DNA of 57,376 bases. Origin: a virus. The position numbers and the translations under genes were made by a program. Shown one piece after another: positions 14,041 to 50,625 of the stretch. How positions within the stretch are numbered: the first letter of the stretch is position 1; every line of letters begins with the position of its first letter. The stretch covers positions 1-57,376 of the IMG/VR virus record IMGVR_UViG_3300035698_002427, one strand, 5' to 3'. The notes beneath the pieces were generated by a model that worked only from the letters and a program-made list of their open reading frames with translations, was not told the origin of the DNA and ran no database searches.

Positions 14041-14047
14041 ATTTAGG

Positions 14048-14169: not shown

Positions 14170-14174
14170 ACAAT

Positions 14175-14837
14175 ATGAAAACATTTGAACAATTTTTCCT
14201 TGAGATGGCAAGACCTAATAGGGTAATCCCGGCCCTAATTGGACAGGAACCAACCGCCAGATATGAAAACCTATTCGAAAGACTTGGAAAATCCTTGAGA
14301 AGTGGCAACTCCACAACGGGAGAACCCCTAATGGACACAACCGGAGATCCCGCATATGGGTTGGGCGACGATAGAATCCAAGAGAGAAAACTCAAATGGT
14401 TTTTCTATGTATTGACGTTACCAAAACTCACAGGGTCCGTAGTAATCCCACACAACTTGAAACCCGAGATCGAGAGATCACGTAAATATGTTCGTAATAT
14501 AATCTCAACCAACGATATAAAAAATATACCCCCAACACACAAGGGTAGACATATTTTGGCCATTGCATTGGCAATAAAAGCAAATCCATCCTACTTTAAC
14601 GATGAATTATTTGAAAAAACGCTGTTCAATCCAACAGCCCTTGGAGATTATCTCAACCAAATGAGAACAACAGACAACCCAACATCACAGACCAGAGGCA
14701 AAGAAAAAGAAGCCCAACATAATATACCTCTCCGAAATATTGACAAAGTCAACTCGGCCAATCGACCATATGAAACGACCCTCAATAAAATGAAGGGACA
14801 TCATTCTATAATGAAGCCAACCCATAATGAAGTTTGA
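14175..14837 (+). CDS. putative internal head protein, T4 IPIII-like leader
   Basis: 220 residues. MKTFEQFFLE|M closely resembles the capsid-targeting leader of T4 internal protein III (MKTYQEFIAE). The body (LFERLGKSLRSG, then GLGDDRIQERKLKWFFYVLTLPKL) is paralogous to residues 20-90 of the next gene. The rest is basic and polar. Predicted fate: co-assembly into the prohead core, cleavage after the Glu and ejection with DNA. The P3 residue is Phe, not the Leu/Ile of T4. It is a plus-strand late gene embedded between early minus-strand operons. Confidence 0.6.
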   Translation: MKTFEQFFLEMARPNRVIPALIGQEPTARYENLFERLGKSLRSGNSTTGEPLMDTTGDPAYGLGDDRIQERKLKWFFYVLTLPKLTGSVVIPHNLKPEIERSRKYVRNIISTNDIKNIPPTHKGRHILAIALAIKANPSYFNDELFEKTLFNPTALGDYLNQMRTTDNPTSQTRGKEKEAQHNIPLRNIDKVNSANRPYETTLNKMKGHHSIMKPTHNEV

Positions 14838-23281: not shown

Positions 23282-24487
23282 TTAATTCCAACGCTTCAGA
23301 AAAACGCGATCCGTCGATCCATACGGGGTATTAAATGCCTCGATGAACGATCCAATATTTCCCGGATGCTCCAAAAATCTCGTTTCGCCCAATTTTCTCA
23401 GTTCTGGCACGATTTGATAATATCTGGACCTGTTTTTCCAAGACAATAATCTGTCAAGGATTGATTCCAATTCATCTACAGTGTCAAACTTCATTGCATC
23501 AGGTGCGGACTCATATGTGATTAAGTTTTGGCAAATACATGGGACTCCCAACATCGCAGCTTCAATAAACTTGATGTCGGATTTAGCCCTATTGAAATTA
23601 TTGGCCTGAAGCGGGGCAATAAATGCTTGCGCTCCGAGAGATGCTAAGAAGTTTGGAAAATCGATTAGTGATTTCCAAGGATGATATTCGATCTGCCCGG
23701 TCTTTATATACTGAGCCAGAGGAGGCGGACAAGCACCCACGAAAATAAATTGATATTTTGCTAAATTATCAACCACAAACTTAATAACATGAGTGAAATC
23801 GTCCTGTTGACCAGTCTTATTTTTCATGTCGAAGTGTGCGCCCGAACCCGCGTAGACAATTCGGGGTCTTTTCTTGTTCTTGTCAAAGGCATTAATAACC
23901 TTATTGTAGTTATATTGATGACCCATCCACCAATGAGGCATAAAGTTTGGAATGACCGTGATCTTTTTCTGACCTGTCTTATCAATATACATATCCCGAA
24001 GGAACTTATTTGTAACGGTGACTTCATCGACCATTCGAATCATATCGATACAGTTTTGTCGAATCTCATCGGAATCAAATCCATGTTTTGATGCATTGTA
24101 ATCGGGGATCTCCTCCCGGAAGACAACGTCATCGGATTCATAAATCATTTTAAATCCCATTTCTGGTTGAATCGACTTCAAATACTCCATGAATTGCTTT
24201 TGGTGGGGGGCAGCCTGTCTCTGGAGAGTAATGCATCTCACATCTCCATAGAATCCCTTCTCATATACCATCTTAGTAAGTTCTGTTACATCCCCAATGC
24301 CACTGTATCTGATATGATTGGCTGCAAATCCTCTCCGATACATCATACATCCATCATTACCGGCATTAAAATTGACATAACGATTACCCAGATCCGTTTT
24401 AGGCCCCGGATTCTTAGTTTTTACTGCGAATGGAGCTTGCCCGAAAGGGGCCGATGGATATGGAGTCGCGAAAGAAGTTGCCAGCAT
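23282..24487 (-). CDS. glycosyltransferase (GT4-like, cyanophage type)
   Basis: 401 residues. A two-domain GT-B protein: MIYESDDVV in the N-terminal half, a linker near 200 (TVIPNFMPHWW), RIVYAGSGAHFDM at the start of the nucleotide-sugar domain, and KSDIKFIEAAMLGVPCICQN (about 330), the Glu-containing donor-binding motif. Homologues beginning MLATSF are common in T4-like cyanophages. The acceptor is unknown. The start codon lies in the 3' arm of a perfect 9-bp hairpin. Confidence 0.8.
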   Translation of the reverse strand: MLATSFATPYPSAPFGQAPFAVKTKNPGPKTDLGNRYVNFNAGNDGCMMYRRGFAANHIRYSGIGDVTELTKMVYEKGFYGDVRCITLQRQAAPHQKQFMEYLKSIQPEMGFKMIYESDDVVFREEIPDYNASKHGFDSDEIRQNCIDMIRMVDEVTVTNKFLRDMYIDKTGQKKITVIPNFMPHWWMGHQYNYNKVINAFDKNKKRPRIVYAGSGAHFDMKNKTGQQDDFTHVIKFVVDNLAKYQFIFVGACPPPLAQYIKTGQIEYHPWKSLIDFPNFLASLGAQAFIAPLQANNFNRAKSDIKFIEAAMLGVPCICQNLITYESAPDAMKFDTVDELESILDRLLSWKNRSRYYQIVPELRKLGETRFLEHPGNIGSFIEAFNTPYGSTDRVFLKRWN

Positions 24488-33992: not shown

Positions 33993-34256
33993 ATGAAAAT
34001 TGAAATTGTCGCCAACAATGATGAGTTGTTCAAAATGGACACGGATACTCCTTTGCTTCTCCCAGAAGATATACGTTCTATGCAATACACAGAAGACGTA
34101 GAGATTGTGGACCCGGCCCGAACAGAACCCGCTGTCGTGCATACCCCAAAAGTAAAAGCACCGCAAGGTGTTCCTTTTGAGAATCACAAGTTTAATGGTC
34201 CCGGTTTTTTCGAAGGAACTTCTTGGGAAGGTAAAATGCAGCGACCCAATAGCTAA
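33993..34256 (+). CDS. small hypothetical protein
   Basis: 87 residues, acidic at the start (ANNDELFKMDTDTP), with no recognised domain. Its own sigma70-like promoter suggests early expression, unlike the late-type genes before it. The stop overlaps the convergent phoH gene by 4 bp. Confidence 0.5.
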   Translation: MKIEIVANNDELFKMDTDTPLLLPEDIRSMQYTEDVEIVDPARTEPAVVHTPKVKAPQGVPFENHKFNGPGFFEGTSWEGKMQRPNS

Positions 34257-34984
34257 ACTCTCAGGACTTGAGTGATGTGTTTTAGTATTTGAGAGCGAAC
34301 GATATCAGTCGTATCCAATTTCATGCAGAATATATTATTCTTCACCGAATGCTCGGTGTCAAAGGCGTCAAAAATCGGTCTGAATCCAGACTCCCGAATG
34401 TCTGTTTGATTTGAATCTCCACATACAAAATATTTGGAATGTCTACCAAATCTGGTAAGAATTGTTACGATTTCACCTCTGGTCATATTTTGAGTTTCAT
34501 CTAAGATGACAGCGGATCTGTTGAAGGTTAAACCTCGAACAAAGTTCACGGGTATGGCTTTAATACATCCATATTCCATTAGAGATTTTGTTGTGTGGCT
34601 ATCGACAATTTCGCCAAGTTTGTCCATCAGGGGCATTGCATATGGTCCAAATTTCTCCTCAACCTCTCCCGGCAAAGCCCCAATAGACTTTGAAGAACTT
34701 TCAACAACCGTTCTAATATAAATGATGTGATCCACATGCCGGTCCTTCAACAACTCAAGTGCTGAATATACTGCCATATAAGTTTTCATTGATCCGGCGG
34801 GTCCATTCACGAAAACCATATTTGTATTTGGGTTTTGAGACGCGAAATAGAAATCCGAATGGTGGGCATTAAGAGGAAACTGTTTTTTTAATTCTATGTG
34901 TGAACAGTTGAAGTTTTTATCGAACGCATCTGTAAATTCTTCAGATGTTTCTTTCCGTTTTCGAGAGACTCTTTTTGTAGGCAT
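34253..34984 (-). CDS. phoH: PhoH-like P-loop protein
   Basis: 243 residues. VFVNGPAGSMKTYMAV holds the Walker A loop, with Met where a Gly is usual before Lys. IIYIRTVVESS, AIPVNFVRGLTFNRSAVILDETQNMT (Walker B) and FVCGDSNQTD are the typical PhoH segments. PhoH is common in aquatic phages and probably acts as an RNA/DNA helicase-like or nuclease-associated ATPase; its role in infection is not settled. TAAATA lies 7 nt before the ATG. Confidence 0.85.
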   Translation of the reverse strand: MPTKRVSRKRKETSEEFTDAFDKNFNCSHIELKKQFPLNAHHSDFYFASQNPNTNMVFVNGPAGSMKTYMAVYSALELLKDRHVDHIIYIRTVVESSSKSIGALPGEVEEKFGPYAMPLMDKLGEIVDSHTTKSLMEYGCIKAIPVNFVRGLTFNRSAVILDETQNMTRGEIVTILTRFGRHSKYFVCGDSNQTDIRESGFRPIFDAFDTEHSVKNNIFCMKLDTTDIVRSQILKHITQVLRV

Positions 34985-34991
34985 CTACAAC

Positions 34992-34997
34992 TATTTA
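34992..34997 (-). promoter_or_regulatory. TAAATA box, 7 nt before the phoH ATG
   Basis: Minus strand: TTAAATA, 7 nt, ATG 34984. A weak -35 (TTGCTT) lies 15 bp upstream. Confidence 0.5.
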
Positions 34998-35044
34998 ATC
35001 CAGAGATAAAAAAAGCAAGACCGGAAAAAAAGATAGATTTCCCA

Positions 35045-35072
35045 TTGACAATTAGAGATTGTGTGGTAAATT
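35045..35072 (+). promoter_or_regulatory. sigma70-like promoter of the glycan operon
   Basis: TTGACA (35045-35050), 16 bp, TAAATT (35067-35072), 9 nt, ATG 35082. No other good promoter is seen until 43.6 kb. Confidence 0.65.
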
Positions 35073-35081
35073 TAAAGGTAT

Positions 35082-35813
35082 ATGAGACTTGCAATTTCTG
35101 GAACCGCAAATACAGGCAAAACCACATTGGTCAATGCGTTCAAGCATAGATGGCCAATGTATACATCACCCACAAAAACTTATAGAGATATCCTAAAAGA
35201 GAAAAACCTGAGCCATTCCTCGGAAACGAGTGCCGAGACTCAATTGGCAATTCTTGATTGGATGATGTCTGAGCAAAAAAATTATCCCAAGGATTCCTAT
35301 GTGATCTATGATCGCTGTCCTTGGGATAATTTAGCATATACTCTTCAGGGGAATGCAGATGGCTTGATTTCGGATGAAGTTACAGCCGCTTCAATCTCCT
35401 TTGTTAAAAAATCCATGAAAGAATTGGATATTATCTTCTGGTTGAAGTATAATCCCACAATTAAAATTGTAGATGATGGTGTGCGAGACACCACAGATGG
35501 ATTTATTGAAGAAACGGATAAGATTTTTGGCGATCTGTTCGATCAATACATGGACAATCTCGATCAAGATATTTTTTATCCAAAAGAAGACTGCCCTGCT
35601 ATCATCGCTCTGGATGATGCATTTCCAACTGTTGATGATCGCATGATGTTTATTGGAGAGTTCCTAAACAAAGAGGGAGATCTAATTGAAACGGACGAGT
35701 CGATCTTGAGTATGGACAATCTGAAAATCTACGAGGATATTCTGGGAGATCAGAAAAAACAAATAGAGGCAGATGCCAGATTGAACAAAATCATTGGAGA
35801 ATTGAAAAAATGA
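35082..35813 (+). CDS. P-loop kinase-like ATPase (NadR/AAA_28-type)
   Basis: 243 residues. SGTANTGKTTLVNAF (Walker A, residues 6-20), SYVIYDRCPWDNLAY (about 78, resembling the D-R motif of deoxynucleoside or NadR-type kinases) and IFWLKYNPTIK. A small-molecule kinase of nucleotide, sugar or cofactor type is likely. It is the first gene of the glycan operon and is coupled to the next by ATGA, so a role in sugar metabolism is possible. Confidence 0.6.
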   Translation: MRLAISGTANTGKTTLVNAFKHRWPMYTSPTKTYRDILKEKNLSHSSETSAETQLAILDWMMSEQKNYPKDSYVIYDRCPWDNLAYTLQGNADGLISDEVTAASISFVKKSMKELDIIFWLKYNPTIKIVDDGVRDTTDGFIEETDKIFGDLFDQYMDNLDQDIFYPKEDCPAIIALDDAFPTVDDRMMFIGEFLNKEGDLIETDESILSMDNLKIYEDILGDQKKQIEADARLNKIIGELKK

Positions 35814-36667
35814 AAAGTCCAGGGAAAATTGGGGTAGGCATTATCACCTGTAATCGGCCAGAAATGTTAAAAAAATGTTGTCTGTCGCTTAAAGATAATG
35901 CCACCATTGACGAAATAATTATCATAGATGATGGAACTGAAAGAGTGTCTCCTAATTGGTTTCTCGAAAATCGGATTTTTCACACGGAAAATGGAGAGTT
36001 AGAGATTAACAATAGGGTAAGTCACAATTATACCAATTTGGGTGTAGGGGAATCCAAAAATAAAGCTCTTAATCATCTATTGGATACGAGATGTGATCAC
36101 ATATTTTTAATTGAGGATGATATCTTTATTAAAGACCCAACTGTTTTCCTAAAGTATATAGAAGCATCTTTAGTCTCTGGAATCCAACATTTCAATTTCT
36201 CCCAACATGGTTTGATGAATAAGACTTTTGATGGAAGAAAAACACCCAACCCCCGATTGATTGTAGATTATGGTGGGGTGAAAATTCCATTATACCCACA
36301 TTGTGTGGGGGCATTTTCATATTACTCGAAATACTGTCTCGATTTTGTGGGATTATTGGATGAAAGATATGTCAATGCTTGCGAGCATGTGGATCATACG
36401 TATCAAATCATTAAAAAGGAAATGCATCCCCCGTTTTGGTATTTCGCAGATATTGAAAACTCTTGGGAATATTTGGGAGATGAGGAATGGTCCTTGGCGA
36501 ACTCCACGATCTCTTCTAAGCCTAACCATCAGCAGATGATGCGGGACGCAGATAAAATCTTCGTTGAGACGCACGGGCATCTCCCGGTCGAAACTCCGCA
36601 GGTTGGAGAAGAAGATGTAATAAAAACTTTAAAAGAAATTAAAAAGACATGGACCTTACAATTGTAA
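35810..36667 (+). CDS. glycosyltransferase family 2-like
   Basis: 285 residues. GVGIITCNRPEMLKKCCLSL (GT-A start), EIIIIDDGT, NLGVGESKNKAL and HIFLIEDDIFI (D-D metal motif, about 100) are standard GT2 features. YPHCVGAFSYYSKYCLDFVG and ERYVNACEHVDHTYQI form the acceptor half. The sugar is unknown. It overlaps both neighbours. Confidence 0.82.
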   Translation: MKSPGKIGVGIITCNRPEMLKKCCLSLKDNATIDEIIIIDDGTERVSPNWFLENRIFHTENGELEINNRVSHNYTNLGVGESKNKALNHLLDTRCDHIFLIEDDIFIKDPTVFLKYIEASLVSGIQHFNFSQHGLMNKTFDGRKTPNPRLIVDYGGVKIPLYPHCVGAFSYYSKYCLDFVGLLDERYVNACEHVDHTYQIIKKEMHPPFWYFADIENSWEYLGDEEWSLANSTISSKPNHQQMMRDADKIFVETHGHLPVETPQVGEEDVIKTLKEIKKTWTLQL

Positions 36668-37359
36668 CGTGTAATCATAATACCCCAAAATTAATTCGAA
36701 ATTTGGTGAAGTCGGTCAATAATACTTGTGAAAGTGTTCCTAAAATATTGGTGGTTGATACGGGCCACCACCCAACACCATACCAAGAAATGGCTATTGG
36801 TGCGTCTTATTGGTGGCACCCTGACAGGTCACATGGGGATGCTGTTAATGGTGCTATGTCTAAAAAATCAATTAAGACTCGATACATGCTATTAGTGGAT
36901 TCTGATGTTTTGTTCCTCAAAGATATTAAAAAACCCTTCGAAAAATTTAAAGAGTCCGGTGTAGCGTTGATGGGCGAAGTGGTCGGAGATCGAGGAGGAA
37001 AATCATTATACCCTAGAGTCAATCCATGGTTCTGTTTTATAGATTTGGACACCATCAAGGCTAACGACATCGAGTTTTATGACCAGTATAGAACAAAAGA
37101 AATTAAATCTGAGAAGATTTATGATATAGGCTCAACATTCTATGAGGATATTTTAGGAAAAGGATTAGAAATTGGAGATGCTAAAATGGAGGGAAAGTAT
37201 TTTAAACATTATGAAGGAATGTCTTGGAGAGTTCAGAAATATGATCCCTCTAATGGAGACACTGACATCGATGTTGGAGGAACTCATGATAACAAAGCAT
37301 TATATGAGTATGGTTTAATGGTGGCAAAGCAATACGAGATAGACATTAAGGAATTATGA
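36649..37359 (+). CDS. glycosyltransferase family 2-like
   Basis: 236 residues. LTIVTCNHNTPKLIRNLV, KILVVDTGHHP, HGDAVNGAM and YMLLVDSDVLFLKDI (D-S-D metal motif, about 85) show the GT-A fold. GSTFYEDILGKGLEI and FKHYEGMSW make up the C-terminal part. It overlaps the previous gene by 19 bp and the next by ATGA. Confidence 0.78.
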   Translation: MDLTIVTCNHNTPKLIRNLVKSVNNTCESVPKILVVDTGHHPTPYQEMAIGASYWWHPDRSHGDAVNGAMSKKSIKTRYMLLVDSDVLFLKDIKKPFEKFKESGVALMGEVVGDRGGKSLYPRVNPWFCFIDLDTIKANDIEFYDQYRTKEIKSEKIYDIGSTFYEDILGKGLEIGDAKMEGKYFKHYEGMSWRVQKYDPSNGDTDIDVGGTHDNKALYEYGLMVAKQYEIDIKEL

Positions 37360-37970
37360 AAACATTAAATGATTATTTTGAAAAAATATATTGTTTGAAT
37401 TTGGATCGGAGAACTGACAGATGGGAGAAATGTCAGGAGAATTTCAAAAAACTTCATCTAAATGTTGAAAGAGTCTCGGCAATAGACAAACATACCCTAA
37501 CATCCAATACTTCAATATCTGAAGGACAATTGGCTTGCTCGAAAAGCCATCTATCAATGATACAAAAGGCTAAGGATGATCAATTATCCCCCATATTAAT
37601 ATTAGAAGATGATGTGATATTATCCGATAATATCAATGAGGTGTTCGAAAAAAATGTGAATAATATTCCCAGGGATTGGGGCATGTTATATTTTGGGGGA
37701 AATCATTTAAATGGGACGGTTCATGTGGTGGAAGATATTCACCGGATGCGCTCATCTTTAACCACTCACGCATATTCTTTAAATGCTAGATTATATGATG
37801 GGATTCTTTCTGGGGTTGGTCGTAATTGGCCCATTGATGTATATTATGCCAGTATACACAGACAAGTTCCTTGTTATGTAATGCAAGAAGGGGCCAAACA
37901 ATTAGCATGGCAGGATGATGGATATAGTGACATTGACGAAGCTGAATGTCACTATACATGGTTGAAGTAA
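37356..37970 (+). CDS. glycosyltransferase family 25 (LPS-type galactosyl/glucosyltransferase-like)
   Basis: 204 residues. IYCLNLDRRTDRWEKCQ, VERVSAIDK, GQLACSKSHLSMIQKA (the GT25 G-x-x-x-C-x-x-S-H motif) and PILILEDDVIL (acidic motif) place it in family 25, known from lipooligosaccharide synthesis. HAYSLNARLYDGIL and PIDVYYASIHR follow in the usual order. Confidence 0.85.
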   Translation: MKTLNDYFEKIYCLNLDRRTDRWEKCQENFKKLHLNVERVSAIDKHTLTSNTSISEGQLACSKSHLSMIQKAKDDQLSPILILEDDVILSDNINEVFEKNVNNIPRDWGMLYFGGNHLNGTVHVVEDIHRMRSSLTTHAYSLNARLYDGILSGVGRNWPIDVYYASIHRQVPCYVMQEGAKQLAWQDDGYSDIDEAECHYTWLK

Positions 37971-37980
37971 CACAGTAGGT

Positions 37981-38688
37981 ATGAATAATTTTACACTATC
38001 TATAATAATTCCATGCTATGAAATGAGTGGAAAAGGATCAATATTCTTGAAAAAGTCTCTTGATATTTTAAGAAATCAAGATATAGAAACTTTGAAGTTT
38101 GAAATTGTAATTTCCGATCATTCGATTGACGATGAAATTCAAAAATGTTGTGAATTATATACAGATCTCAATATAGGATATATTAAAAATGATCAAAATC
38201 GAGGATCTATGTCGGCAAATGCCAATAATTGTATTCGACATTGTTCTGGAAAATATATAAAACCATTATTTCAAGATGATTATTTATTCTCTAACAATTC
38301 TTTACGATTAATGGTGGACAACATCCAAGATAACTGGATCTCTCATGAATACATTCATTTTGATTACGCTGATAATAAGTATTATAACCAGCGAACGCCC
38401 TATTATAATGCGAATATGAGGTCGGGTGTGAATACTATAGGACCACCAACTGCTACAATTTTTTTAAATGACGATAATTTTTTTGATGAAGAGTTGTCCT
38501 GGTTTATGGATACAGATTTTTTTCACAGAATGTTCTTAAAATACGGCCCAATGACAGTATTAAAATGTAATACGCCATTGAGCGTTGTCACAACTTGGTC
38601 GGGGCAGACCACCAACACCACAATCACTCAAGAATTAATTCAAAACGAATCACAATATATAAAACGCAAATATGAAAACATACACTGA
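37981..38688 (+). CDS. glycosyltransferase family 2
   Basis: 235 residues. LSIIIPCYEMSGKGSIFLKKSL, KFEIVISDHS, NRGSMSANANNCI and YIKPLFQDDYL (D-D motif about 97) are classic GT2 elements. WFMDTDFFHRMFLKYG is the later acidic motif. The 3' end overlaps the next gene by 17 bp. Confidence 0.85.
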   Translation: MNNFTLSIIIPCYEMSGKGSIFLKKSLDILRNQDIETLKFEIVISDHSIDDEIQKCCELYTDLNIGYIKNDQNRGSMSANANNCIRHCSGKYIKPLFQDDYLFSNNSLRLMVDNIQDNWISHEYIHFDYADNKYYNQRTPYYNANMRSGVNTIGPPTATIFLNDDNFFDEELSWFMDTDFFHRMFLKYGPMTVLKCNTPLSVVTTWSGQTTNTTITQELIQNESQYIKRKYENIH

Positions 38689-39355
38689 CGATCTATTACC
38701 AAAACTGAGATATAAATTTGAATCTTGCGAATTAATTAAAACTAATTACTCTCAAGTTTATCAAGACATGTTTGTATTAACTATGTTAGATGGTAAACGC
38801 GATGGCATTTTTGTAGAGATTGGCGCGAGTCATCCTATATCTATCAACAACACGTTCTTACTAGAATCTCAATTTAATTGGGACGGAATTTCTATTGACA
38901 TTGCGGATTTTTATTCCTTTAAAAATACAAGGAGATCCAAATTTTTATGTCAAGATGCGTTGACCATTGATTATAAAAAATTATTTGAAGATCATAAGTT
39001 ACCATTTCAAATCGATTATCTTCAAGTGGACATCGACCCCAATTATAATACATTATCATGTTTGAAACGATTACCACTTGAAGATTATAGATTTTCAGTT
39101 ATAACATATGAAACTGATGTGTATGATCCCAATATGCCTAGAGACCAGGCATTAAAAAATAGGCAAGAATCAAGAGATATTTTATTATCCCATGGATATG
39201 AAATGCTAGTCGGAAATATATGTAATTTGTCTACATCTGACCCATTTGAAGATTGGTACGTTGATCCGAATATTATATCAAAAGAAATTATAGATAAAAT
39301 GCGAGAATCATCTGAATATAACAATACAGCAGAAAGTTACATGTTTGATTTATGA
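38672..39355 (+). CDS. FkbM-type SAM methyltransferase
   Basis: 227 residues. SQVYQDMFVL, GIFVEIGASHPISINNTFLLE (SAM-binding loop, about 47-67), WDGISIDI and QIDYLQVDIDP match FkbM-family methyltransferases, which O-methylate sugars in surface glycans. It probably modifies the glycan made by its neighbours. The stop overlaps the start of the next, frame-disrupted gene. Confidence 0.75.
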   Translation: MKTYTDDLLPKLRYKFESCELIKTNYSQVYQDMFVLTMLDGKRDGIFVEIGASHPISINNTFLLESQFNWDGISIDIADFYSFKNTRRSKFLCQDALTIDYKKLFEDHKLPFQIDYLQVDIDPNYNTLSCLKRLPLEDYRFSVITYETDVYDPNMPRDQALKNRQESRDILLSHGYEMLVGNICNLSTSDPFEDWYVDPNIISKEIIDKMRESSEYNNTAESYMFDL

Positions 39356-39666
39356 TAATTACGGAACTCTACAATGGCCAGGGGCTAGGAAACCATTTCA
39401 TGGTTTTTATAACGAAGATGGGTTTATCTGCGTTAATTATAGGCATGTTTACAAAGAGAATGGAATGAAATTTGCGGGCATTGATACGGCTAAATATTTT
39501 TCACATGAAACTCCAATCCCTGAAATTGAAGGTATTGTCCCGTTTGCATTTCACGGAAGAAAGGGGATTTTTGATTAATTATACTAAATCTTATCCCAGA
39601 CTATTGACTTGTTGTGAGGATATGATATGCTTCTTAACAGAAGACGAAGAAATTTCAATTCAATAA
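39352..39666 (+). pseudogene. frame-disrupted glycan gene, GQGLGN N-terminus
   Basis: ATG 39352 overlaps the previous TGA (ATGA) and encodes MIITELYNGQGLGN, the start of a family found in phage and bacterial glycan clusters and related to GT11-type folds. That frame closes at about residue 39. A second frame carries KPFHGFYNEDGFICVNY ... FAFHGRKGIF to 39578, then the first frame resumes with INYTKSYPRLLTCCEDMICF to TAA 39664-39666. Two compensating single-base changes, near 39390 and 39570, would give one roughly 105-residue protein. The full family is longer, so it is probably a decayed remnant. Confidence 0.5.
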
Positions 39667-39667
39667 T

Positions 39668-40957
39668 ATGATATTAAAAGAAAACATTAAAACTTTAGTG
39701 GGGAATCACGTATCTCCATACATCTACAATGCGAAAGAGTTTAATCCCGGAATAACTCCGATTTATTATTCTGGTCCGTATTGGAACAGTGAAGAAACGG
39801 AGGCGGCATTAGACTCGTTTCTAAATGGAAAATGGATAACCGCCGGGGAGAAAGTTTTCAAATTTGAAAAAGAATTCAGCAAAAAGTTTCATTGTAAGTA
39901 TTCTCATATGGTAAACTCTGGAAGTTCCGCGAACCTAATTTTGATTACAGCCCTGAAAAAACGATTTGGGTGGGACGATGGAGATGAAATAATTGTGTCT
40001 CCCGTAGGATTCCCAACCACAATTTCAGTAATATATCAAAACAGATTAGTTCCCACATTTGTTGATATTGAATGGGACACTTTAAATTTTGACATCAATA
40101 AAATTGAAGAAAAGATAACGCAAAAGACAAGAGCTATTTTTGTTTCGCCCGTATTGGGAAATCCCCCAGACATTGACAAACTATTAGAATTGTGTAAAAA
40201 ATATAATCTGCTATTGGTTGGCGACAACTGTGATAGTTTGGGTAGTAAATGGGACGGCAAATATTTGAATGAATATTATGTCGCTTTTTCCAATTCCTTT
40301 TATCTCGCCCACCACATCAGCACAGGCGAGGGCGGGATGGTCTGCACCGATGATGTGGAATTGAAGAAACTGTTCGTGAGCCTATGCTGGTGGGGACGAG
40401 ATTGCTATTGTGTGGGATCTGCTAACCTCTTGCCGTGTGGCTCATGTGGAAAACGTTTCGATAAATGGTTGGACGATTTTGATGGAGTGATAGATCATAA
40501 ATACGTGTTTTCTGAAATGGGATATAATTTAAAACCTTTAGATTTACAAGGAGCAATTGGGTTAGTTCAATTATCTAAATTGGATGAAATAGAAGAACGG
40601 AGACAAACATCCAAGACCACAATTACAGACATATTTCTACGTAACTTGGATGGTATTCACACTCCCACAACCTTAGAAAAGGCAAATCCCTGTTGGTTCG
40701 GAACACCATTTATATGCGAAGATCCAATTTTGAAACATAAATTGGTAAAACATTTAGAAGAAAATAAGATTCAAACTCGAAATTATTTTGCTGGGAATAT
40801 CCTCATCCATCCCGGCTATAAATTTCTTGGCAATTATAAAGATTATCCAGAATCAAATAAAGTGTTAGACAGAGTATTTTTCATTGGGGCCGCACCACAT
40901 TATACGGAAGAGGTGTTTGAATATATTGAAGAAACCGTAAAACAATTTAAATTATGA
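39668..40957 (+). CDS. rfbH: RfbH-type CDP-4-keto-6-deoxyglucose 3-dehydrase (PMP and [2Fe-2S] dependent)
   Basis: 429 residues, as in RfbH/AscC (E1). A DegT/DnrJ-type fold-type I enzyme in which the PLP lysine is replaced by His: SFYLAHHISTGEGG (about 212-225). CWWGRDCYCV...CGSCGKRF (about 240-265) matches the cysteine cluster holding the iron-sulfur centre in E1. It removes the 3-OH on the way to 3,6-dideoxyhexoses (paratose, abequose, tyvelose, ascarylose). The reductase partner E3 is not in the window. Confidence 0.88.
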   Translation: MILKENIKTLVGNHVSPYIYNAKEFNPGITPIYYSGPYWNSEETEAALDSFLNGKWITAGEKVFKFEKEFSKKFHCKYSHMVNSGSSANLILITALKKRFGWDDGDEIIVSPVGFPTTISVIYQNRLVPTFVDIEWDTLNFDINKIEEKITQKTRAIFVSPVLGNPPDIDKLLELCKKYNLLLVGDNCDSLGSKWDGKYLNEYYVAFSNSFYLAHHISTGEGGMVCTDDVELKKLFVSLCWWGRDCYCVGSANLLPCGSCGKRFDKWLDDFDGVIDHKYVFSEMGYNLKPLDLQGAIGLVQLSKLDEIEERRQTSKTTITDIFLRNLDGIHTPTTLEKANPCWFGTPFICEDPILKHKLVKHLEENKIQTRNYFAGNILIHPGYKFLGNYKDYPESNKVLDRVFFIGAAPHYTEEVFEYIEETVKQFKL

Positions 40958-41766
40958 TATCAGTATTTGGGGCAAAAGGATTTATTGGTTCGGCATTTTG
41001 TCGAAAATATAAAGAGCAAGTTATAGAAATCGAAAGAGATAGTGTTATACCATTGTCCAATGAGGTGTTGTATCTCATAAGTACTGTAGACAATTATAAT
41101 ATTTTCAATGACTCAAAAATAGATATTCAAACCAATCTAATTCATTTGATGTCGGTCTTAGATAATTGCAAGGACAGAGATATAACCTTCACATTTATTA
41201 GTTCTTGGTTTGTGTATGGTAATGATTACCTTCCCGCTTTCGAAACTGATGTTTGTAATCCCAAAGGATTCTATTCTATAACTAAACACGCCGCAGAATT
41301 AATGTTGGAATCTTATTGTAAGACTTTCAACATCAAATATAAAATAATTCGTATGGCGAACGTCATTGGGAAGAATGATAGTAAGGTGTCGAAGAAAAAA
41401 AACGCCTTTCAATATTTGATTGGGGAACTAAAAGAAAATAGACCCATTGCATTATACAATGATGGCCTATTTTATAGGGATTATATACACATCCAAGATG
41501 CAATTGAGGGAATTAAACTAGTTGTGGGTGAAGGTGAATCTGGAGAGATTTATAATTTAGGATCTGGGTGTCCAAATTTATTCAAAAATATAATTTCATA
41601 TGCCCACACCAAACTAAACTCTAAAAGTGAAATTGGGACGATGGCTCCTACCGATTTTCACAAATTGGTGCAAGTAAAATCTATATACTTAGATATAACA
41701 AAGATCGAAGAACTTGGATATTTTCCAAAAATAGACCTCATAACTGCTATAGACGATATATTATAA
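40954..41766 (+). CDS. NAD(P)-dependent sugar reductase/epimerase (extended SDR), possible CDP-dideoxyhexose synthase
   Basis: 270 residues. GAKGFIG (4-10) is the G-x-x-G-x-x-G dinucleotide motif. FISSWFVYG holds the catalytic Ser, and FYSITKHAAELM the Y-x-x-x-K. It directly follows rfbH by an ATGA overlap. In Salmonella and Yersinia the corresponding neighbours (RfbJ, RfbS) reduce the RfbH product to CDP-abequose or CDP-paratose, so that role is likely. Confidence 0.75.
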   Translation: MISVFGAKGFIGSAFCRKYKEQVIEIERDSVIPLSNEVLYLISTVDNYNIFNDSKIDIQTNLIHLMSVLDNCKDRDITFTFISSWFVYGNDYLPAFETDVCNPKGFYSITKHAAELMLESYCKTFNIKYKIIRMANVIGKNDSKVSKKKNAFQYLIGELKENRPIALYNDGLFYRDYIHIQDAIEGIKLVVGEGESGEIYNLGSGCPNLFKNIISYAHTKLNSKSEIGTMAPTDFHKLVQVKSIYLDITKIEELGYFPKIDLITAIDDIL

Positions 41767-42575
41767 TGAAACCTACTTTAACTGGAAGCGTAACCGACAA
41801 CACCCATTTAGATCATATTGATTTTAAATGCATGGTTTTATTTGAACCATGTCCCCAATTTTTATATTCTAATTGGCGAGAGGCACTGCGAGATTATGAT
41901 AAAATCATTATGATCAATGGATGTGAGCCGCCACCAATAAACAATATAAGATCGATACTGGAGTCTCAAGATCTTGATTCTATGGATGTCTACACTTTCG
42001 ATGAAGAATTACTCAACAATTTTCCGAAATTTAAGAAATTCATATTTGGAACCTGTTGGGTGCTGACAAATGAGAATGGCAACATGGTCAACACGCGAGC
42101 GGAATATTTCGATTTCTTCAAACCTGAAAATAAGAACTTTAAAGTGTCGTATATCCGCTCCGATAAAAATTGCTTAGAGGGGCATAGACTCAGACACCAA
42201 ATATCATTTGATGATTGTGCATGTGAGATTTTATATCCTAAGTATAGAATCGACACAAAGATACCATTGTTTGTAGATTCTATGTTTCATATCTCCATTG
42301 AAAATTCCAAATATGCTAATTATTTCACAGAAAAAATTATAGATTGTTTCATGAGTAAAACGATTCCTATATATTGGGGGTGTCCAAACATATCAGAATA
42401 TTTTAATCCGGATGGTATTATAACATTTGAAACTCCCGAAGAACTAACCACAATATTACGCACCATAAGTCCAACGTGGTATCAGGATAGACTTCCGGTA
42501 ATTTTAGAAAACTATGAAAGGTCCAAAGAATACGCATTCATATGGGATCGGTTGAACAACATGGTGCTATCGTGA
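41766..42575 (+). CDS. GT10 fucosyltransferase-like (alpha-1,3/4 type)
   Basis: 269 residues. FHISIENSKYANYFTEKIID (about 175-194) and PIYWGCPNISEYFNPDGII are the diagnostic donor-binding block of family 10 alpha-1,3/4-fucosyltransferases. CWVLTNENG... makes up the N-terminal domain. The donor may be GDP-fucose or another deoxysugar nucleotide. ATG overlaps the reductase stop (TAATG). Confidence 0.82.
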   Translation: MKPTLTGSVTDNTHLDHIDFKCMVLFEPCPQFLYSNWREALRDYDKIIMINGCEPPPINNIRSILESQDLDSMDVYTFDEELLNNFPKFKKFIFGTCWVLTNENGNMVNTRAEYFDFFKPENKNFKVSYIRSDKNCLEGHRLRHQISFDDCACEILYPKYRIDTKIPLFVDSMFHISIENSKYANYFTEKIIDCFMSKTIPIYWGCPNISEYFNPDGIITFETPEELTTILRTISPTWYQDRLPVILENYERSKEYAFIWDRLNNMVLS

Positions 42576-43321
42576 CAAAATGTTATGCCAGATTGGCGGG
42601 TGGTGTAGGTAATCAATTGTTTATCACTGCGGCAGCGTATGCGTATTCTAAAAAATATAATAAAGAATTATGCTTAGATGGGGATAATTGGGTCGGCCAT
42701 CAAGGCAAACCGGCAAATGAATATAGAGATACAATTTTCAAGAATTTTATATATGATAGTTCATACCTATCGGGCACCACTCCGATTTTAGAAAAACGAT
42801 GTAATTATGATGACCCCCCAGAAATCGATGGAAGTGTTGCATTTTGCGGATACTTCCAATCACTAAAATATTTTGAAGAATATAAGGATGATTTTATAAA
42901 AGAATTGAACCTCCCGGAAGTTGATGTATCGATCCTCAATAAAAAGAATGTAGCGTTTCACATCAGAAGAGGTGATTATCTGACATTTAAAGACATCTAT
43001 GGAATCTGTGGAACCAAATATTTCGAAGATCACTTTAAAAAGTTTGAGGATTATCAGATCAATGTATTCACAGATTCTCCAGAGCATGTTTTAGACGAGT
43101 TTGAGAAATATGATTTCAATTTAATTCAAACCTCATCAGAATTAAATGACTTGACTTTGATGTCGAAGCATGATAGTATGGTGTGTAGCAACTCTACCTT
43201 TTCATGGTGGGCGTCCCTGATCGGAAATACGAAAACTGTGATAGTTCCCGATAAATGGTTCTTAGACGGGAGAGAACACGAAGACATTTATAGACCCGAT
43301 ATGATAAAATATGAGCTTTAA
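42572..43321 (+). CDS. GT11 fucosyltransferase-like (alpha-1,2 type)
   Basis: 249 residues from GTG 42572, chosen for its GTGA overlap with the GT10 stop; an ATG at 42542 would lie inside that gene. ARLAGGVGNQLFITAAAYAY (motif at the start), VAFHIRRGDYLTF (the HxRRxDY motif, about 130) and SNSTFSWWASLIG are the three GT11 motifs. It probably adds a deoxysugar to the surface glycan. Confidence 0.85.
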   Translation: MTKCYARLAGGVGNQLFITAAAYAYSKKYNKELCLDGDNWVGHQGKPANEYRDTIFKNFIYDSSYLSGTTPILEKRCNYDDPPEIDGSVAFCGYFQSLKYFEEYKDDFIKELNLPEVDVSILNKKNVAFHIRRGDYLTFKDIYGICGTKYFEDHFKKFEDYQINVFTDSPEHVLDEFEKYDFNLIQTSSELNDLTLMSKHDSMVCSNSTFSWWASLIGNTKTVIVPDKWFLDGREHEDIYRPDMIKYEL

Positions 43322-43652
43322 GACAACAAATCATCTGCTCTTTGAGAAAAAGAAGCCATTGGATATAGATCGTCTCGCGGAGTTCAATCCATATCTCGCG
43401 GCCCGATCATTTTCTTTTCTGAACAATGGCACGTTCATAGAATATATTAACGAAACTCTGAATATGTATTCAAACTTATTTGCATCGCCAGAAGATAAGT
43501 TTAAATTTTTTGAAAATGTGATCGTCAAGAGTAAAAAAAGACCATATAAATATATCAAAAGAGCCCAAAAAGACAGGAAAATTGAATCAGAACCAACTCC
43601 AGAATTTTACTCCACAAGAGAACTTGCTTTTCTAAAAGAACAACTTAAATAA
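43311..43652 (+). CDS. 62: clamp-loader small subunit (T4 gp62-like)
   Basis: 113 residues, shorter than T4 gp62 (187). EFNPYLAARSFSFLNNGTFIEYINETLN and KSKKRPYKYIKRAQ match the conserved core of the phage clamp-loader A family (NP-F-x-x-N-R-x-L-S-F then KRRFxKWxK). With gp44, which is not in the window, it loads the gp45 clamp. It overlaps the end of the glycan operon by 11 bp. Confidence 0.65.
   Translation: MSFKTTNHLLFEKKKPLDIDRLAEFNPYLAARSFSFLNNGTFIEYINETLNMYSNLFASPEDKFKFFENVIVKSKKRPYKYIKRAQKDRKIESEPTPEFYSTRELAFLKEQLK
43646..43651 (+). promoter_or_regulatory. late-type box TAAATA at the gp62 stop, 8 nt before ATG 43660
   Basis: The gp62 stop TAA (43650-43652) overlaps the box. Then 8 nt, ATG. 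Confidence 0.5.
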
Positions 43653-43659: not shown

Positions 43660-44076
43660 ATGAATGACACACCCGCCGCATCAATCGACATCCTCACTCC
43701 CCTCAGAAGCCACATCGATCTTACTGATAATGCCCTTCCATCAGATTTTGGAATGGATGAGTATACTCTCTCAAAATTATTTGATGATGTTATGCTTTTA
43801 GAGTATTGCGACCTCCAAGGCTCCGATGATGGATCAGAATTCGTTATGCGGGGTAGAATCGCTATTCCAGTTGCCCAAATCCATAATGCATGGAGAAAAG
43901 GTAAAGTCATTCTAAAAGGTCCAAATGTCAAATATACGGACGTTGGAGACATTGTAATCTTCCCGAGTAATATGGGAATCCCAATTTCAAATCTTGAAGT
44001 TGATGGCTATGGGGAAGTCAATAAAGGCTTATTCCTAAACGAACAGAGGATGTTCGGCATTTGCAAGGCTAAATAA
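43660..44076 (+). CDS. 31: GroES/gp31-like co-chaperonin
   Basis: 138 residues. The C-terminal two thirds follow the GroES order: DVMLLEYC, RGRIAIPVAQIHNAWRKGKVI, VKYTDVGDIVIFPSNMGIPI and LFLNEQRMFGICKA, corresponding to the GroES strands and 'V-G-D-x-V-x-F' turn. T4 gp31 replaces host GroES so that the head protein gp23 can fold. The N-terminal 35 residues are extra. Late-type promoter fits head assembly. Confidence 0.65.
   Translation: MNDTPAASIDILTPLRSHIDLTDNALPSDFGMDEYTLSKLFDDVMLLEYCDLQGSDDGSEFVMRGRIAIPVAQIHNAWRKGKVILKGPNVKYTDVGDIVIFPSNMGIPISNLEVDGYGEVNKGLFLNEQRMFGICKAK
44070..44075 (+). promoter_or_regulatory. late-type box TAAATA at the upstream stop, 6 nt before GTG 44082
   Basis: GCTAAATAA contains the upstream TAA stop. 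6 nt follow, then GTG. Confidence 0.55.
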
Positions 44077-45036: not shown

Positions 45037-47553
45037 ATGACGAACCTACTTTTAAACTTCCCCGAGGGTTACACGCCAAATAAATCTCAGAAAGAGATCC
45101 TTCCCAAGATTGAGGCGGCATTTGCAAAAGATAAAAAGTTTATCATTATAAATGCTGCCACCGGATGTTTGACTGGTGATACCATTGTTATTTTAAACTC
45201 CAAGAAAAAAAGCAAACGGTTCAAATTGCGGGATGTTTATACTCATTTTCATGGAAGATCGCCACATGAAATACTTCCCGGTTATTGTGGGTGTGGGTGT
45301 GGAGAATTGTTAAAAGGAACTAGATCTAAACATTTAAAACATCACAGTTGCCAATTATATAAATGGGAGACAATTCCAAATATTCGATCTTATATTGGCG
45401 ATAAATTAGGGTTACAATCAATGTTAAATGTTGTTTATTCTGGGAAAAAGGAAGTATATAGCTTGACATTATCTAACGGTTTTCAATTAAAGGGCACCGC
45501 GTGCCACCCAATTTTAACTAAAACTGGGTTTAAGCCATTGGGCGAATTGACGAATCTTGATAATATTGCGGTTGACCCAGTTTGGGATCGGAAAAATAAC
45601 CCTAAGACTCCCACAATATATAAAAAAATGTATGATACGCATGTATGTGAAGTACCTCATCACCCATTTTCCAAATCGGTAAAAACCAACAAGTACTCCG
45701 CCGGGTTTACCTATAGAGTCGCAATTCATCGATTTGTAGTAGAGGCGAAATTAAACAATTGTACAGTAGCCGAACTAAAAGAAAAATGTCGAGTTAATGA
45801 TATCGAAGGATTGATTTTTATAGACCCAACTACACATGTGGTTCATCATATAGATCACGATCACTATAATAATAGGGAGGATAATTTAATGGCTATGACA
45901 ATTTCAGAACATTTAAAACATCATGGTAAGATCAACGTTGTCAATCTTGGGCGTTTTACGCCGAATTACACAACAGTTGAAAGTGTAAAATATATTGGAG
46001 TCGAAGATACGTATGACATTCAATGTCCCGACCCCCATCATAATTTCGTGGCCAATGGAATTGTTGTTCACAACTCGGGCAAGACTCATATAGTGAAAAC
46101 TCTGGGTAATATGGTGCGACCCCCTAGTCTAGCCTTCAAAGAATCTGTAGATGATTATAGCATCTTCAAAGAAGGGGCAGAAGACTCGATGTTCGACGAT
46201 TCATTTGGACTATATGCCCTGACGATTACAAAAGCACTCCAAGATCAATACAAGAACACATTCGAGGATACTGGAATCCTGAAAGGGCAATCGAATTATC
46301 AATGCGATCTGGATGATGCGATGTCCGTGGATATTGCGCCATGCATTTATATTCCGGGACAAAAACAAGAGTGCTGGAAATCTAATAGATGTCCCTACTA
46401 TAATAGTCGAAACGAGATGTTGAAGTCTCAATTTTCAGCCTTGAATTACAGTATGTTCTTTTCTCTACCTGAGCATTTAAAGAAAAGACAGATTATTGTG
46501 TGTGATGAAGGATCAGAATTGGAAGACCAATTAGTGGCACAATTTACTTGCGAAATTGATATTTCCTTCTTGGTGAAACTTGGAGTTTATGTTTCATCAT
46601 TTCCTGTTCAAGAGACACCAACTAAAATTATTAAGTGGCTGGGGAGCACTGTTCAAGCTGTTTTGGATTCCATTGACAATCATAAAGAGCAGATCAAAAA
46701 TGCTAAAATATCGGAGATTTCGAAACTTCGATATGATTATACGAAACTTTTAAATCTTCAAAAAAGCATTGAAATCTTGTTAAGCACATATCACAGTTCC
46801 CAATATTTGATTGAACGAGCCAATAAGAAAATTAAGTTTATTCCTCTGAAAGTTGATAAATTGTCGTCATTTATATTTGACAATGCGGATACTGTTGTTA
46901 TAATGTCTGCGACGATCATCGACCCAAAAAACTTTTGCAAGAATCTTGGGATCGAAGATTATGAATATATTGAGGCTGATAGTGCCTTTGATCCCGCGAA
47001 AGCGCCAATCTATATTCTGGCGAAACAGAAATTAAACTTCAAAAATCTCAAAGAAATGCTACCAGAATTAGCATCTCAGGTACAAGAACTCTTGGATGAA
47101 CATCCAAATGAAAAAGGGATAGTTCACACCCACACACAATATATCGCAGACTATATAAGAGAAAATGTAAAAGACTCCCGATTATTATGTAGAGAGGTTG
47201 GGGTGAGAAATGAGGAATTATTAAACCAACATGAAATTAGTAAAGACCCAACGGTCTTAGTTTCTCCAAGTATGGCCTATGGGGTTGACCTCAAGGGAGA
47301 CTTGGCGAACTTTCAGATTCTATTGAAAGCCCCATGGCTTCCGACCAAAGAGATTAGAATCGAACAAATGATGAAATTGGATAAACATTGGTATGCTAAT
47401 AAAATGCTCTGCACTCTTGTTCAAGCGTGTGGTAGAGGCATTAGATCTGAGGAAGACGAATGTATTACATATATTTTAGACGGGTCAATATTTGATGCCA
47501 TTATAAGAAACAAGGGGAAACTACCAATCTTTTTCTTAGATAGAATTGAATAA
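45037..47553 (+). CDS. DinG/XPD-like superfamily 2 helicase interrupted by an intein in its P-loop
   Basis: 838 residues as translated; 535 after removal of a 303-residue intein. The exteins join as INAATG|SGKTHIVKT, restoring Walker A. Four Cys (CDLD...CIYI...CWKSNRCPYY, about 422-453) suit the Fe-S cluster of XPD/DinG helicases. IIVCDEGSELED is the DEAH-box place. MSATIIDPKNF and ACGRGIRSEED (motif VI) follow. It unwinds DNA 5' to 3' by family analogy. It has its own strong host-type promoter and is coupled (TAATG) to the next ATPase. Confidence 0.85.
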   Translation: MTNLLLNFPEGYTPNKSQKEILPKIEAAFAKDKKFIIINAATGCLTGDTIVILNSKKKSKRFKLRDVYTHFHGRSPHEILPGYCGCGCGELLKGTRSKHLKHHSCQLYKWETIPNIRSYIGDKLGLQSMLNVVYSGKKEVYSLTLSNGFQLKGTACHPILTKTGFKPLGELTNLDNIAVDPVWDRKNNPKTPTIYKKMYDTHVCEVPHHPFSKSVKTNKYSAGFTYRVAIHRFVVEAKLNNCTVAELKEKCRVNDIEGLIFIDPTTHVVHHIDHDHYNNREDNLMAMTISEHLKHHGKINVVNLGRFTPNYTTVESVKYIGVEDTYDIQCPDPHHNFVANGIVVHNSGKTHIVKTLGNMVRPPSLAFKESVDDYSIFKEGAEDSMFDDSFGLYALTITKALQDQYKNTFEDTGILKGQSNYQCDLDDAMSVDIAPCIYIPGQKQECWKSNRCPYYNSRNEMLKSQFSALNYSMFFSLPEHLKKRQIIVCDEGSELEDQLVAQFTCEIDISFLVKLGVYVSSFPVQETPTKIIKWLGSTVQAVLDSIDNHKEQIKNAKISEISKLRYDYTKLLNLQKSIEILLSTYHSSQYLIERANKKIKFIPLKVDKLSSFIFDNADTVVIMSATIIDPKNFCKNLGIEDYEYIEADSAFDPAKAPIYILAKQKLNFKNLKEMLPELASQVQELLDEHPNEKGIVHTHTQYIADYIRENVKDSRLLCREVGVRNEELLNQHEISKDPTVLVSPSMAYGVDLKGDLANFQILLKAPWLPTKEIRIEQMMKLDKHWYANKMLCTLVQACGRGIRSEEDECITYILDGSIFDAIIRNKGKLPIFFLDRIE
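45166..46074 (+). mobile_element. intein with HNH endonuclease domain
   Basis: 303 residues from Cys 44 to Asn 346 of the precursor. Block A is CLTGDTIVIL. Block B is GTACHPILT (T-x-x-H). Blocks F/G are YDIQCPDPHHNFVANGIVVHN, followed by Ser as the +1 residue. All residues needed for splicing are present. The centre has a CGCGCG...C zinc knuckle and VVHHIDHDHYNNREDNL, an HNH homing endonuclease motif. Insertion is exactly in the Walker A loop, a favoured intein site. Confidence 0.93.
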
Positions 47554-48804: not shown

Positions 48805-50625
48805 GTGAATAAATATTCGTATTTTAGGGAGAACATCAACATGCTGACACAATTCGTGGCGGCATTTGATGATTGTTTTGTTTATCGATATACCAAAAAT
48901 GAGGTTCCCAAGGAAAAGATCAATGTTCGATATGTTCTGGGGCCAAAACAAAGGGTCCTCTATGATATTGTAGATCAGGCGAAGAATATTACTCTTCCTG
49001 TGATTTCGATGGAACAGAAGAATATCCAAAGAGATCCTACAAGAATTCAATTTAAAGATCAGAAGATGACACGCCCAAATAAGGGCAATACTCTGGTGTC
49101 AAGAGTCCCGTCTCCGATTCCTGTAATAATGGATATCGACGTGTCAATCGTCGCCAATTATAAAGAAGATATAGATCAGATTGCATCTAACTTTATTCCA
49201 TGGTGTAATCCTTATTTCATTTTGTCTTGGAAGATACCAGAAGATTTTGGAATGGATTTCATAGATGAACTGAGAACTGAAGTTTCTTGGTCCGGGTCCA
49301 TTGACTATGAGAACCCTATGAACATCGAACATACCGAGAAATATAAAATTGTCGGTAATACATCCTTCAAGTTGAAGGGGTGGTTGTTTCCTGCATTGGA
49401 AACCCCCCAAGCGCCGATCTATGTGGTGAATACTAATTTTATTGCTGTGTCATCAGGAGCAAATCTTTATAATTATGATACATTGGTTTCTGGTAATACC
49501 ACCACCGATAGTATATTAATTTCGGCATATCCAGAGTTCACCAATGTATTTTATAAGGGAATGCCCGTTTATGATAACTTAACTCTGAGTCCAGATTGGG
49601 ATCATACTTTCACATTCTTTGGAAAACGTTTTGATTTTAATAATACTTGGTATTTGAGTGGGTCATATTTCTCCAATCTACAATTGGTCGAAATTAATAC
49701 TGCCAAATTTCCAACAATCTCCGCATATAGTATACCATCAGGGATGGTAACAACTATAAATGATAATATTGCATCTATTTCTTTGAGTTCTGGATATCTA
49801 TCTGCGGGCAAGTTCACTGTTGTAACTGCAAATAGTGCTGGGTGGGTTGCGTGGGATAATACCGCCACAGTGGTTAGACTATCTGCGGCAACTCCCCCAG
49901 AAGATCCAGTTGATGCGTATGCTACTGAAATTCTTGCGGATTCTCCAATTGGATACTGGCGACTTGGAGAGTCCAGTGGAACAATTGCGGCAAATGATAT
50001 GGGACCATATCCTGGTACCTATATTGGAAGTCCTATATTGGGTGTAGATGGCGCACTTATTGGTAATCCTAATACTGCCGCAACATTTGATGGAGCGACC
50101 CAGTATATTACGGTAGAGGATGATGATGCGGTCGCGCCTGTAGATATGACTATCGAATTTTGGGTAAAACTTGCATCCCTACCTCCTGAATCGTCATCAC
50201 AGAGAATGTGGCTGATAACAAAAAGTGCGTATTTGCAACAAGAGTATGAGATCTCAATTAATAGTTATAGTAGCGATTACGGAAAGTTTGTCGCGACTCG
50301 ATACACCTCATTGGATGGGGCAACGGGATTTCGTCGAGGTTCATCGTCTAGCGCCCAGATAGGAGTCTGGACACATGTGGTGTTCGTATTCGAGAACAAA
50401 TACCCATTTGCATCCAGACCGGAATGTTATATAAACGGTGTATTGGATAATGGATCTTCATTTGCGGATTCTGGCGCTCCCACAACAACCGGATCGGTAC
50501 AATTACGATTTGGGTGGAAGGACAATGAGAATAACGTAGATGGAACATTAGATGAAATAGCCATATACGATACAGTTCTCACATCAGACCGCATCGCAGC
50601 ACACTATGCGGCATCTGGACGATGA
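48805..50625 (+). CDS. 15: tail sheath stabiliser/completion protein gp15-like, fused to a C-terminal LamG domain
   Basis: 606 residues. Residues 1-205 follow T4 gp15: KEKINVRYVLGPKQR, then VPSPIPVIMDIDVSIVANYKEDIDQIASNFIPWCNPYF and YKIVGNTSFKLKGWLFP, as in T4 (SPIKMIYELSIFTRYEDD..., EVNGWMYP). T4 gp15 has 272 residues. Residues about 375-606 are a concanavalin/LamG jelly-roll: SPIGYWRLGESSG, AATFDGATQYITV, MTIEFWVKL, GVWTHVVFVFE and LDEIAIYDTVL. The extra domain would project from the tail end near the neck and may bind glycans. Confidence 0.75.
   Translation: MNKYSYFRENINMLTQFVAAFDDCFVYRYTKNEVPKEKINVRYVLGPKQRVLYDIVDQAKNITLPVISMEQKNIQRDPTRIQFKDQKMTRPNKGNTLVSRVPSPIPVIMDIDVSIVANYKEDIDQIASNFIPWCNPYFILSWKIPEDFGMDFIDELRTEVSWSGSIDYENPMNIEHTEKYKIVGNTSFKLKGWLFPALETPQAPIYVVNTNFIAVSSGANLYNYDTLVSGNTTTDSILISAYPEFTNVFYKGMPVYDNLTLSPDWDHTFTFFGKRFDFNNTWYLSGSYFSNLQLVEINTAKFPTISAYSIPSGMVTTINDNIASISLSSGYLSAGKFTVVTANSAGWVAWDNTATVVRLSAATPPEDPVDAYATEILADSPIGYWRLGESSGTIAANDMGPYPGTYIGSPILGVDGALIGNPNTAATFDGATQYITVEDDDAVAPVDMTIEFWVKLASLPPESSSQRMWLITKSAYLQQEYEISINSYSSDYGKFVATRYTSLDGATGFRRGSSSSAQIGVWTHVVFVFENKYPFASRPECYINGVLDNGSSFADSGAPTTTGSVQLRFGWKDNENNVDGTLDEIAIYDTVLTSDRIAAHYAASGR

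Follow-up and report, generated by a model that had tools for sequence, protein, structure and literature searches.

A glycan-gene slot of constant position and variable content in a clade of uncultured T4-like phages, with a virion protein as the putative acceptor

Glycan clusters of T4-like phages have long been interpreted, without a test, as tools for changing the lipopolysaccharide (LPS) of the host. T4-like cyanophages and pelagimyophages carry variable, glycosyltransferase-rich clusters for which this is the published reading (PMC2984593; PMC7029224). Here we describe a locus of the same kind at positions 35082–43321 of an uncultured phage sequence, IMG/VR record IMGVR_UViG_3300035698_002427, the whole of which (57,376 nucleotides) was analysed and is referred to below as the window. 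The operon consists of ten intact same-direction genes and one broken stretch, in the order P-loop kinase, GT2, GT2, GT25, GT2, FkbM-like methyltransferase, broken stretch, RfbH, SDR, GT10 and GT11 (GT denotes a glycosyltransferase family). What is new is its setting, an early-type slot of constant position that is flanked by a nucleoside-kinase-like gene and a clamp-loader gene and has been retained throughout a large clade; we have not found such a slot described in the open-access literature. With moderate confidence, we read the locus as a fixed-site, variable-content glycan island in an early-type unit, the acceptor of which is most likely a virion protein.

The LPS-type clusters of the T4-like cyanophages, represented by P-SSM2 (24 genes in two clusters) and Synechococcus phage RB11-B (L080), resemble the operon in setting long runs of GT2, GT11, GT25, FkbM, RfbH (55% identical) and SDR genes in a T4-like genome, and the run of RB11-B is also without a multi-span membrane protein. 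However, the cyanophage run lies near transfer RNA (tRNA) and host-derived genes rather than between a kinase and a clamp-loader gene, and a fixed variable slot with a conserved promoter is shown here for the present clade only; a tRNA search within the window found none. The pelagimyophage host recognition cluster is likewise hypervariable, rich in glycosyltransferases and fixed in its place in T4-like phages. It is placed among tail-fibre genes, with VrlC and gp14 on either side, and has a mean length of 44.6 kb (PMC7029224), whereas the present island is smaller (about 5.5–10 kb or more), follows phoH and contains no tail-fibre gene by Pfam tally.

Relatives were collected by an IMG/VR scan anchored on phoH, which is independent of the glycan genes. 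The scan yielded 80 loci, and 51 contigs had 3 kb or more of sequence towards the operon. The kinase gene was found beside phoH in 50 of these 51 contigs (L157 and L196 included), and the first GT2 gene (GT2a) was likewise present in 50. When a gp31-like (GroES-like) gene served as the anchor, 48 of 49 contigs had at least three island-type genes upstream. The content between these borders is far less uniform. The 286 proteins of 28 non-redundant islands fell into 121 families (30% identity, 60% coverage, single linkage), 77 of which occur in a single island; many of the islands are covered to 10 kb only, and sharing is somewhat underestimated. Leaving aside the kinase, whose presence in 28/28 islands is by construction since the set was chosen for it, GT2a was found in 26 of the 28, the final GT11 in 14 and GT2b in 10, and all families other than GT2a and GT11 were rarer than 14. 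A Pfam tally of the 94 family representatives without window members returned mostly FkbM, GT2, epimerase/GDP-mannose-dehydratase and other methyltransferases, together with GT47, GT7, GT10, GT6 and UDP-galactopyranose mutase. Because the borders and GT2a are kept while the middle genes differ, the locus is a slot of fixed position whose glycan genes change. The original prediction had named loss of the operon in close relatives as evidence that would count against it; no such loss was seen, the slot being kept while its contents change. Variable content at the same place suggests an exchange of sugar coats in these viruses, similar to that of surface antigens in bacteria.

Some of this content is shared widely. 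A 642-kb uncultured phage (L079; LR756502.1) has a long glycan cluster with an RfbH gene (68% identical) and GT2c-like, DUF5672, GT11 and GT17 genes, and RfbH is 55% identical in the T4-like cyanophages; cassettes therefore appear to move between unrelated phages. Genes of other kinds were also observed in the slot. Between the kinase and the first GT2 of L044 (1158–4089) are a phosphoribosyl-pyrophosphate-synthetase-like gene (PF13793) and a NAMPT/NAPRTase-like gene (PF04095, PF18127), a pair resembling the NARP1 pair that reconstitutes nicotinamide adenine dinucleotide (NAD+) and counters NAD-depleting defences; gene spacing in L188 is as in L044, and a similar gap occurs in other relatives. 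At the right end of the L009 island, just before gp62, lies a DNA adenine/cytosine methylase gene (10474–11256; PF01555, E 3e-44), and several relatives are alike in this respect.

The window itself may have preserved one step of such turnover. The broken stretch (39352–39578, plus strand), originally described as a decayed gene, proved on blastx and inspection of the junction DNA to consist of the ends of two genes joined where they share a short sequence, and its interpretation as a single pseudogene was rejected. About 14 codons of a GT11-type start are joined out of frame, at GGAAACC, to the C-terminal third of a DUF5672 gene; blastx gave 78% identity over 69 residues to positions 150–214 of the intact L005:3606-4250. 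Several relatives have GT11, GT17, DUF5672, DUF3431, RfbH and SDR, in that order, after GT2c, and the scar lies at the corresponding place. Judged from these sequences, about 2 kb appear to have been deleted at a short repeat. An artefact of chimeric assembly is possible; a real deletion event is favoured because 7 nt are shared at the joint. The scar may be a cassette loss caught in the act, the two genes concerned being intact in relatives.

The only good promoter for the operon is a sigma70-like element, TTGACA-16-TAAATT with an extended −10 TG, at 35045–35072, 9 nt before the kinase ATG. The original prediction had presented it as the sole good promoter, which holds for the operon, although others of the same class exist in the window. 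Relatives at only 60–75% protein identity carry the same element at the same position. Among 35 sequences (the window and 34 kinase clusters at 95%), TAA(A/G)(A/T)T was found 5–11 nt before the kinase ATG in 22, versus 1.9 in shuffles (largest 8). The late motif YTAAATA precedes the kinase in 2 of the 35 and is missing at the window operon. In the window this motif ends 3–10 nt upstream of numerous start codons, with 15 sites within 40 nt of a start versus 0.85 expected under uniform placement, and it marks the portal, neck and other structural genes as well as the divergent phoH-like gene that forms the left border (34253–34984, minus strand; phrog_170, E 1e-58), where TTAAATA at 34992–34998 lies 7 nt before the ATG. 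The T4-type late box TATAAATA was not enriched; the clade uses YTAAATA.

Downstream, the unit does not end at GT11 as had been supposed. It continues into a gp62-like gene for the clamp-loader small subunit (43311–43652), the right border, which overlaps the last glycosyltransferase gene by 11 nt and has no promoter motif of its own, and is followed by a gene for a GroES-like (gp31-like) co-chaperonin (43660–44076) with its own late motif, TTAAATA, at 43645–43651. Both lie on the plus strand. Their identities were settled only through homologues in PHROGs: 15 of 24 aligned gp62-like homologues, though not the window protein, match phrog_225 ('clamp loader', best 7e-10), and 8 of 9 gp31-like homologues match phrog_3188 (best 9e-5); PDB profile and tblastn searches returned nothing for either. 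An early-type, sigma70-like operon promoter is supported by these sequence comparisons, and the original proposal of one glycan operon under early-type control finds its support at the same level, in the conservation of the −10 element, the lack of the late motif and the coupling to the clamp-loader gene.

The spacing of the late motif is an observation in its own right. Across 2,282 open reading frames from the fetched viral contigs (the window and L005–L227), the motif lies 5 nt from the start codon in 128 cases, 6 nt in 41 and 7 nt in 35, against a background of 0–6 per position beyond 12 nt. This is a leaderless distance, compared with 14–28 nt in T4; with the T4 spacing, the transcript would start at the ATG. 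A Shine-Dalgarno-like word was found at 3 of 21 promoter-proximal starts in the window and at 7 of 45 others. Given the motif spacing and the few Shine-Dalgarno words, largely leaderless messages free of such words are possible in this clade.

All operon genes lie on the plus strand and are tightly packed, with overlaps of 1–34 nt or gaps of at most 10 nt at every junction except for one 312-nt gap that holds the broken stretch, so that the coupled ten-gene glycan operon first proposed was recovered in full. Its family labels also held, with matches counted over the curated Pfam cut-off, for the kinase, the three GT2 proteins, GT25, RfbH, the reductase, GT10 and GT11; only the FkbM label is less secure. 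The kinase (35082–35813), which also opens the unit in relatives, matches AAA_28 (6e-11) and dNK (8e-7) over the cut-off and a deoxyguanosine kinase profile in PDB (5e-5). A role as sugar kinase was rejected, there being no sugar-kinase match; by its sequence the protein is of the AAA_28/dNK type and not a sugar enzyme. GT2a (35810–36667) matches PF00535 and phrog_2456, and its model has a GT-A fold with a predicted local distance difference test (pLDDT) score of 88.5. A structure search with this model retrieved many GT-A enzymes at a template-modelling (TM) score of about 0.5 (chondroitin polymerase, polypeptide GalNAc transferases and WrtF), and viral ones at TM scores of up to 0.69; such model-based matches do not tell the acceptor. 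As the conserved glycosyltransferase of the islands, GT2a is a candidate initiating transferase. It is followed by GT2b (36649–37359; PF00535 at cut-off), GT25 (37356–37970; PF01755, 1e-18) and GT2c (37981–38688; PF00535, 7e-11).

The putative methyltransferase (38672–39355) has no match in Pfam (PF05050 included), NCBIfam or PHROGs, and a PDB profile search gave nothing useful. Its model adopts an S-adenosylmethionine-dependent methyltransferase fold (pLDDT 76), which makes the FkbM label plausible, not proven. RfbH (39668–40957; PF01041), of the CDP-6-deoxy-xylo-4-hexulose-3-dehydrase type, has its best matches in PDB 3bcx/3bb8 (E 8e-78). Alignment to 3bcx places a His at the position of the pyridoxal-phosphate-binding lysine of ordinary family members, and the cysteines of the [2Fe-2S] cluster align; against the NCBIfam RfbH model the protein scores 374 bits, under the cut-off of 423. 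The SDR-type nucleotide-sugar reductase/epimerase gene (40954–41766; PF01370, 1e-29) lies mostly directly 3' of RfbH in relatives. GT10 (41766–42575; PF00852, 6e-8), of the fucosyltransferase family, and GT11 (42542–43321; PF01531, 6e-15), the right end of the island, complete the set.

None of the operon proteins has a predicted membrane segment, and none of the 286 proteins in the 28 islands has two or more; by the same method, Wzx and Wzy of E. coli K-12 have 9 and 6 segments. The island therefore supplies only soluble enzymes. Possible substrates are a cytoplasmic acceptor such as a virion protein and, if host factors assist, lipid-linked glycans of the host. Serotype conversion, one of the functions suggested originally, sits poorly with islands that contain none of the membrane components by which O-antigen is known to be converted or exported. 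The Gtr cassettes of temperate phages share with the operon the presence of phage-borne glycosyltransferases, and one GT2 here has a weak match to the GtrB PHROG; in contrast, Gtr requires a membrane flippase and a membrane transferase (GtrA, GtrB and GtrC are multi-span), neither of which is present in the operon. A Wzx/Wzy O-antigen locus is set apart by its Wzx flippase and Wzy polymerase, which the operon lacks, and no Wzx-family flippase was found in 12 relatives of 144–212 kb.

Early expression had been taken to point to host envelope glycans as the target, whether for serotype conversion or for superinfection exclusion. The glycosyltransferases of PBCV-1 are also mostly soluble and early, and several are tied to capsid glycosylation (PMC5408694); since enzymes that glycosylate this capsid are early too, early timing does not separate a host from a virion acceptor. 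PBCV-1 resembles the present system in its virus-encoded, early, soluble transferases and in a methyltransferase domain, and differs in being a eukaryotic virus with scattered genes, no operon and a known acceptor. Flagellin glycosylation islands of Geobacillus combine fixed borders with highly variable content, FkbM genes and a protein acceptor (PMC5109656). The present island shares the borders, the variability and the FkbM-type genes; unlike it, the Geobacillus island is a cellular locus adjoining its own acceptor gene.

Among the functions considered we rank glycosylation of a virion protein first, with about an even chance of being correct, and alteration of host glycans second, at a chance well short of even. 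In the latter, enzymes made early would act from the cytoplasm on the lipid-linked O-antigen or capsule and would depend on the flippase and ligase of the host, and the changed surface would exclude competing phages from infected cells or stop released virions from binding them. The early-type promoter is in keeping with this, RfbH, SDR, GT25 and GT2 are typical O-antigen genes, and a host-directed role has been proposed for P-SSM2 (PMC2984593) and for pelagimyophages (PMC7029224). However, no flippase, polymerase, Gtr-type or other multi-span protein occurs in the 28 islands, and the timing does not discriminate.

If a virion protein is the acceptor, host RNA polymerase would transcribe the island early, along with the kinase and clamp-loader genes, so that the enzymes would probably be present in the cytoplasm ahead of virion-protein synthesis. 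GT2a would put the first sugar on a conserved acceptor, and the variable transferases would lengthen the chain; a conserved first GT2 with changing later transferases would fit an acceptor that stays the same and an outer glycan that varies. RfbH and SDR would make a 3,6-dideoxysugar from host CDP-4-keto-6-deoxyhexose, and the methyltransferase would cap or modify the glycan. The acceptor would be a tail, neck or head-surface protein, as in the chlorovirus capsid or bacterial flagellin islands, and content would turn over by cassette gain and loss, as proposed here because the outer glycan would be under diversifying selection. Several points weigh against this scheme. CDP-glucose 4,6-dehydratase (RfbG) and RfbF were not found in the window and gave no match over cut-off in the 12 relatives, RfbH carriers included; the substrate would therefore come from the host or be a different nucleotide sugar. 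The original suggestion of nucleotide-sugar preparation fits RfbH and SDR and no other gene. The virion acceptor is putative, promoter activity and timing are predicted, and the sequences do not fix the donors of GT10 and GT11 or the substrate of RfbH. An envelope target retains its share of probability because peripheral soluble transferases can use a host flippase and ligase, and published work interprets similar cyanophage clusters as LPS genes (PMC2984593).

Sugar modification of phage DNA, with the kinase taking part in a T4-like base glycosylation, is very improbable. T4-like phages are known for glucosylated DNA and the first gene is nucleoside-kinase-like, but T4-type glucosylation involves a deoxycytidine monophosphate (dCMP) hydroxymethylase, and no member of the thymidylate synthase/dCMP hydroxymethylase family (PF00303) was found in the 12 large relatives, with positive controls in 9 genomes (the window itself being a fragment); a long, variable series of transferases with sugar methyltransferases also fits base modification poorly. 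Equally slight is the chance that the island is a passive landing site through which glycan genes from hosts and other phages drift without a common function, for although single-island families are numerous (77/121), one cassette in the window is broken and RfbH is shared at 68% with the 642-kb phage, nearly all relatives retain the slot, its promoter, the first GT2 and the operon coupling, and with few exceptions the genes are intact.

The window is a 57.4-kb fragment whose portal (phrog_213), late sigma factor (phrog_234) and PhoH (phrog_170) matches in PHROGs confirm the T4-like affiliation assumed at the outset. Its portal is about 26–29% identical, at most about 29%, to that of any catalogued phage (50,697 records), and the lineage is therefore far from cultured phages. 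A scan of bacterial genomes with RfbH returned only three Nitrospirae contigs (50–52% identity, G+C 59–66%) with bacterial-looking neighbours, and no host is therefore inferred. The three additional glycosyltransferases expected outside the operon were all recovered, at 415–1251 (PF00535) and 13381–14211 (PF13712), both over the Pfam cut-off, and at 23282–24487 (phrog_7162, E 8e-21). Elsewhere, the P-loop of a DinG/Rad3-like helicase (45037–47553) is split by an HNH-endonuclease-containing intein (PF14890, PF13392), the homologues in relatives being about 541 residues long and seemingly intein-free. A T4 gp15-like tail sheath stabiliser (48805–50625; PF16724) bears a C-terminal laminin-G/ConA-lectin-like domain (PF13385); its homologues span 359 to 646 residues, so the lectin-like part may be optional. 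A GIY-YIG/NUMOD3 homing-endonuclease-like gene (22408–23190) adjoins the DNA polymerase gene, and a 42% identical relative of it adjoins phoH in L028.

With its dozens of natural variants, its conserved promoter and first transferase and its lack of membrane parts, the slot poses a sharp question, namely whether the acceptor is a virion protein or a host lipid. We suggest, at a little short of even confidence, that the island is a virion serotype locus, the first fixed-slot system of its kind in phages, by which the phage's own particles would bear clade-variable, methyl-capped glycans; early enzymes would build these in the cytoplasm, a single conserved transferase initiating them and exchangeable cassettes supplying their outer part. 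If the virions are indeed glycan-coated, phage serotype, receptor matching and the avoidance of recognition by hosts or grazers would gain a locus that can be read from metagenomes.

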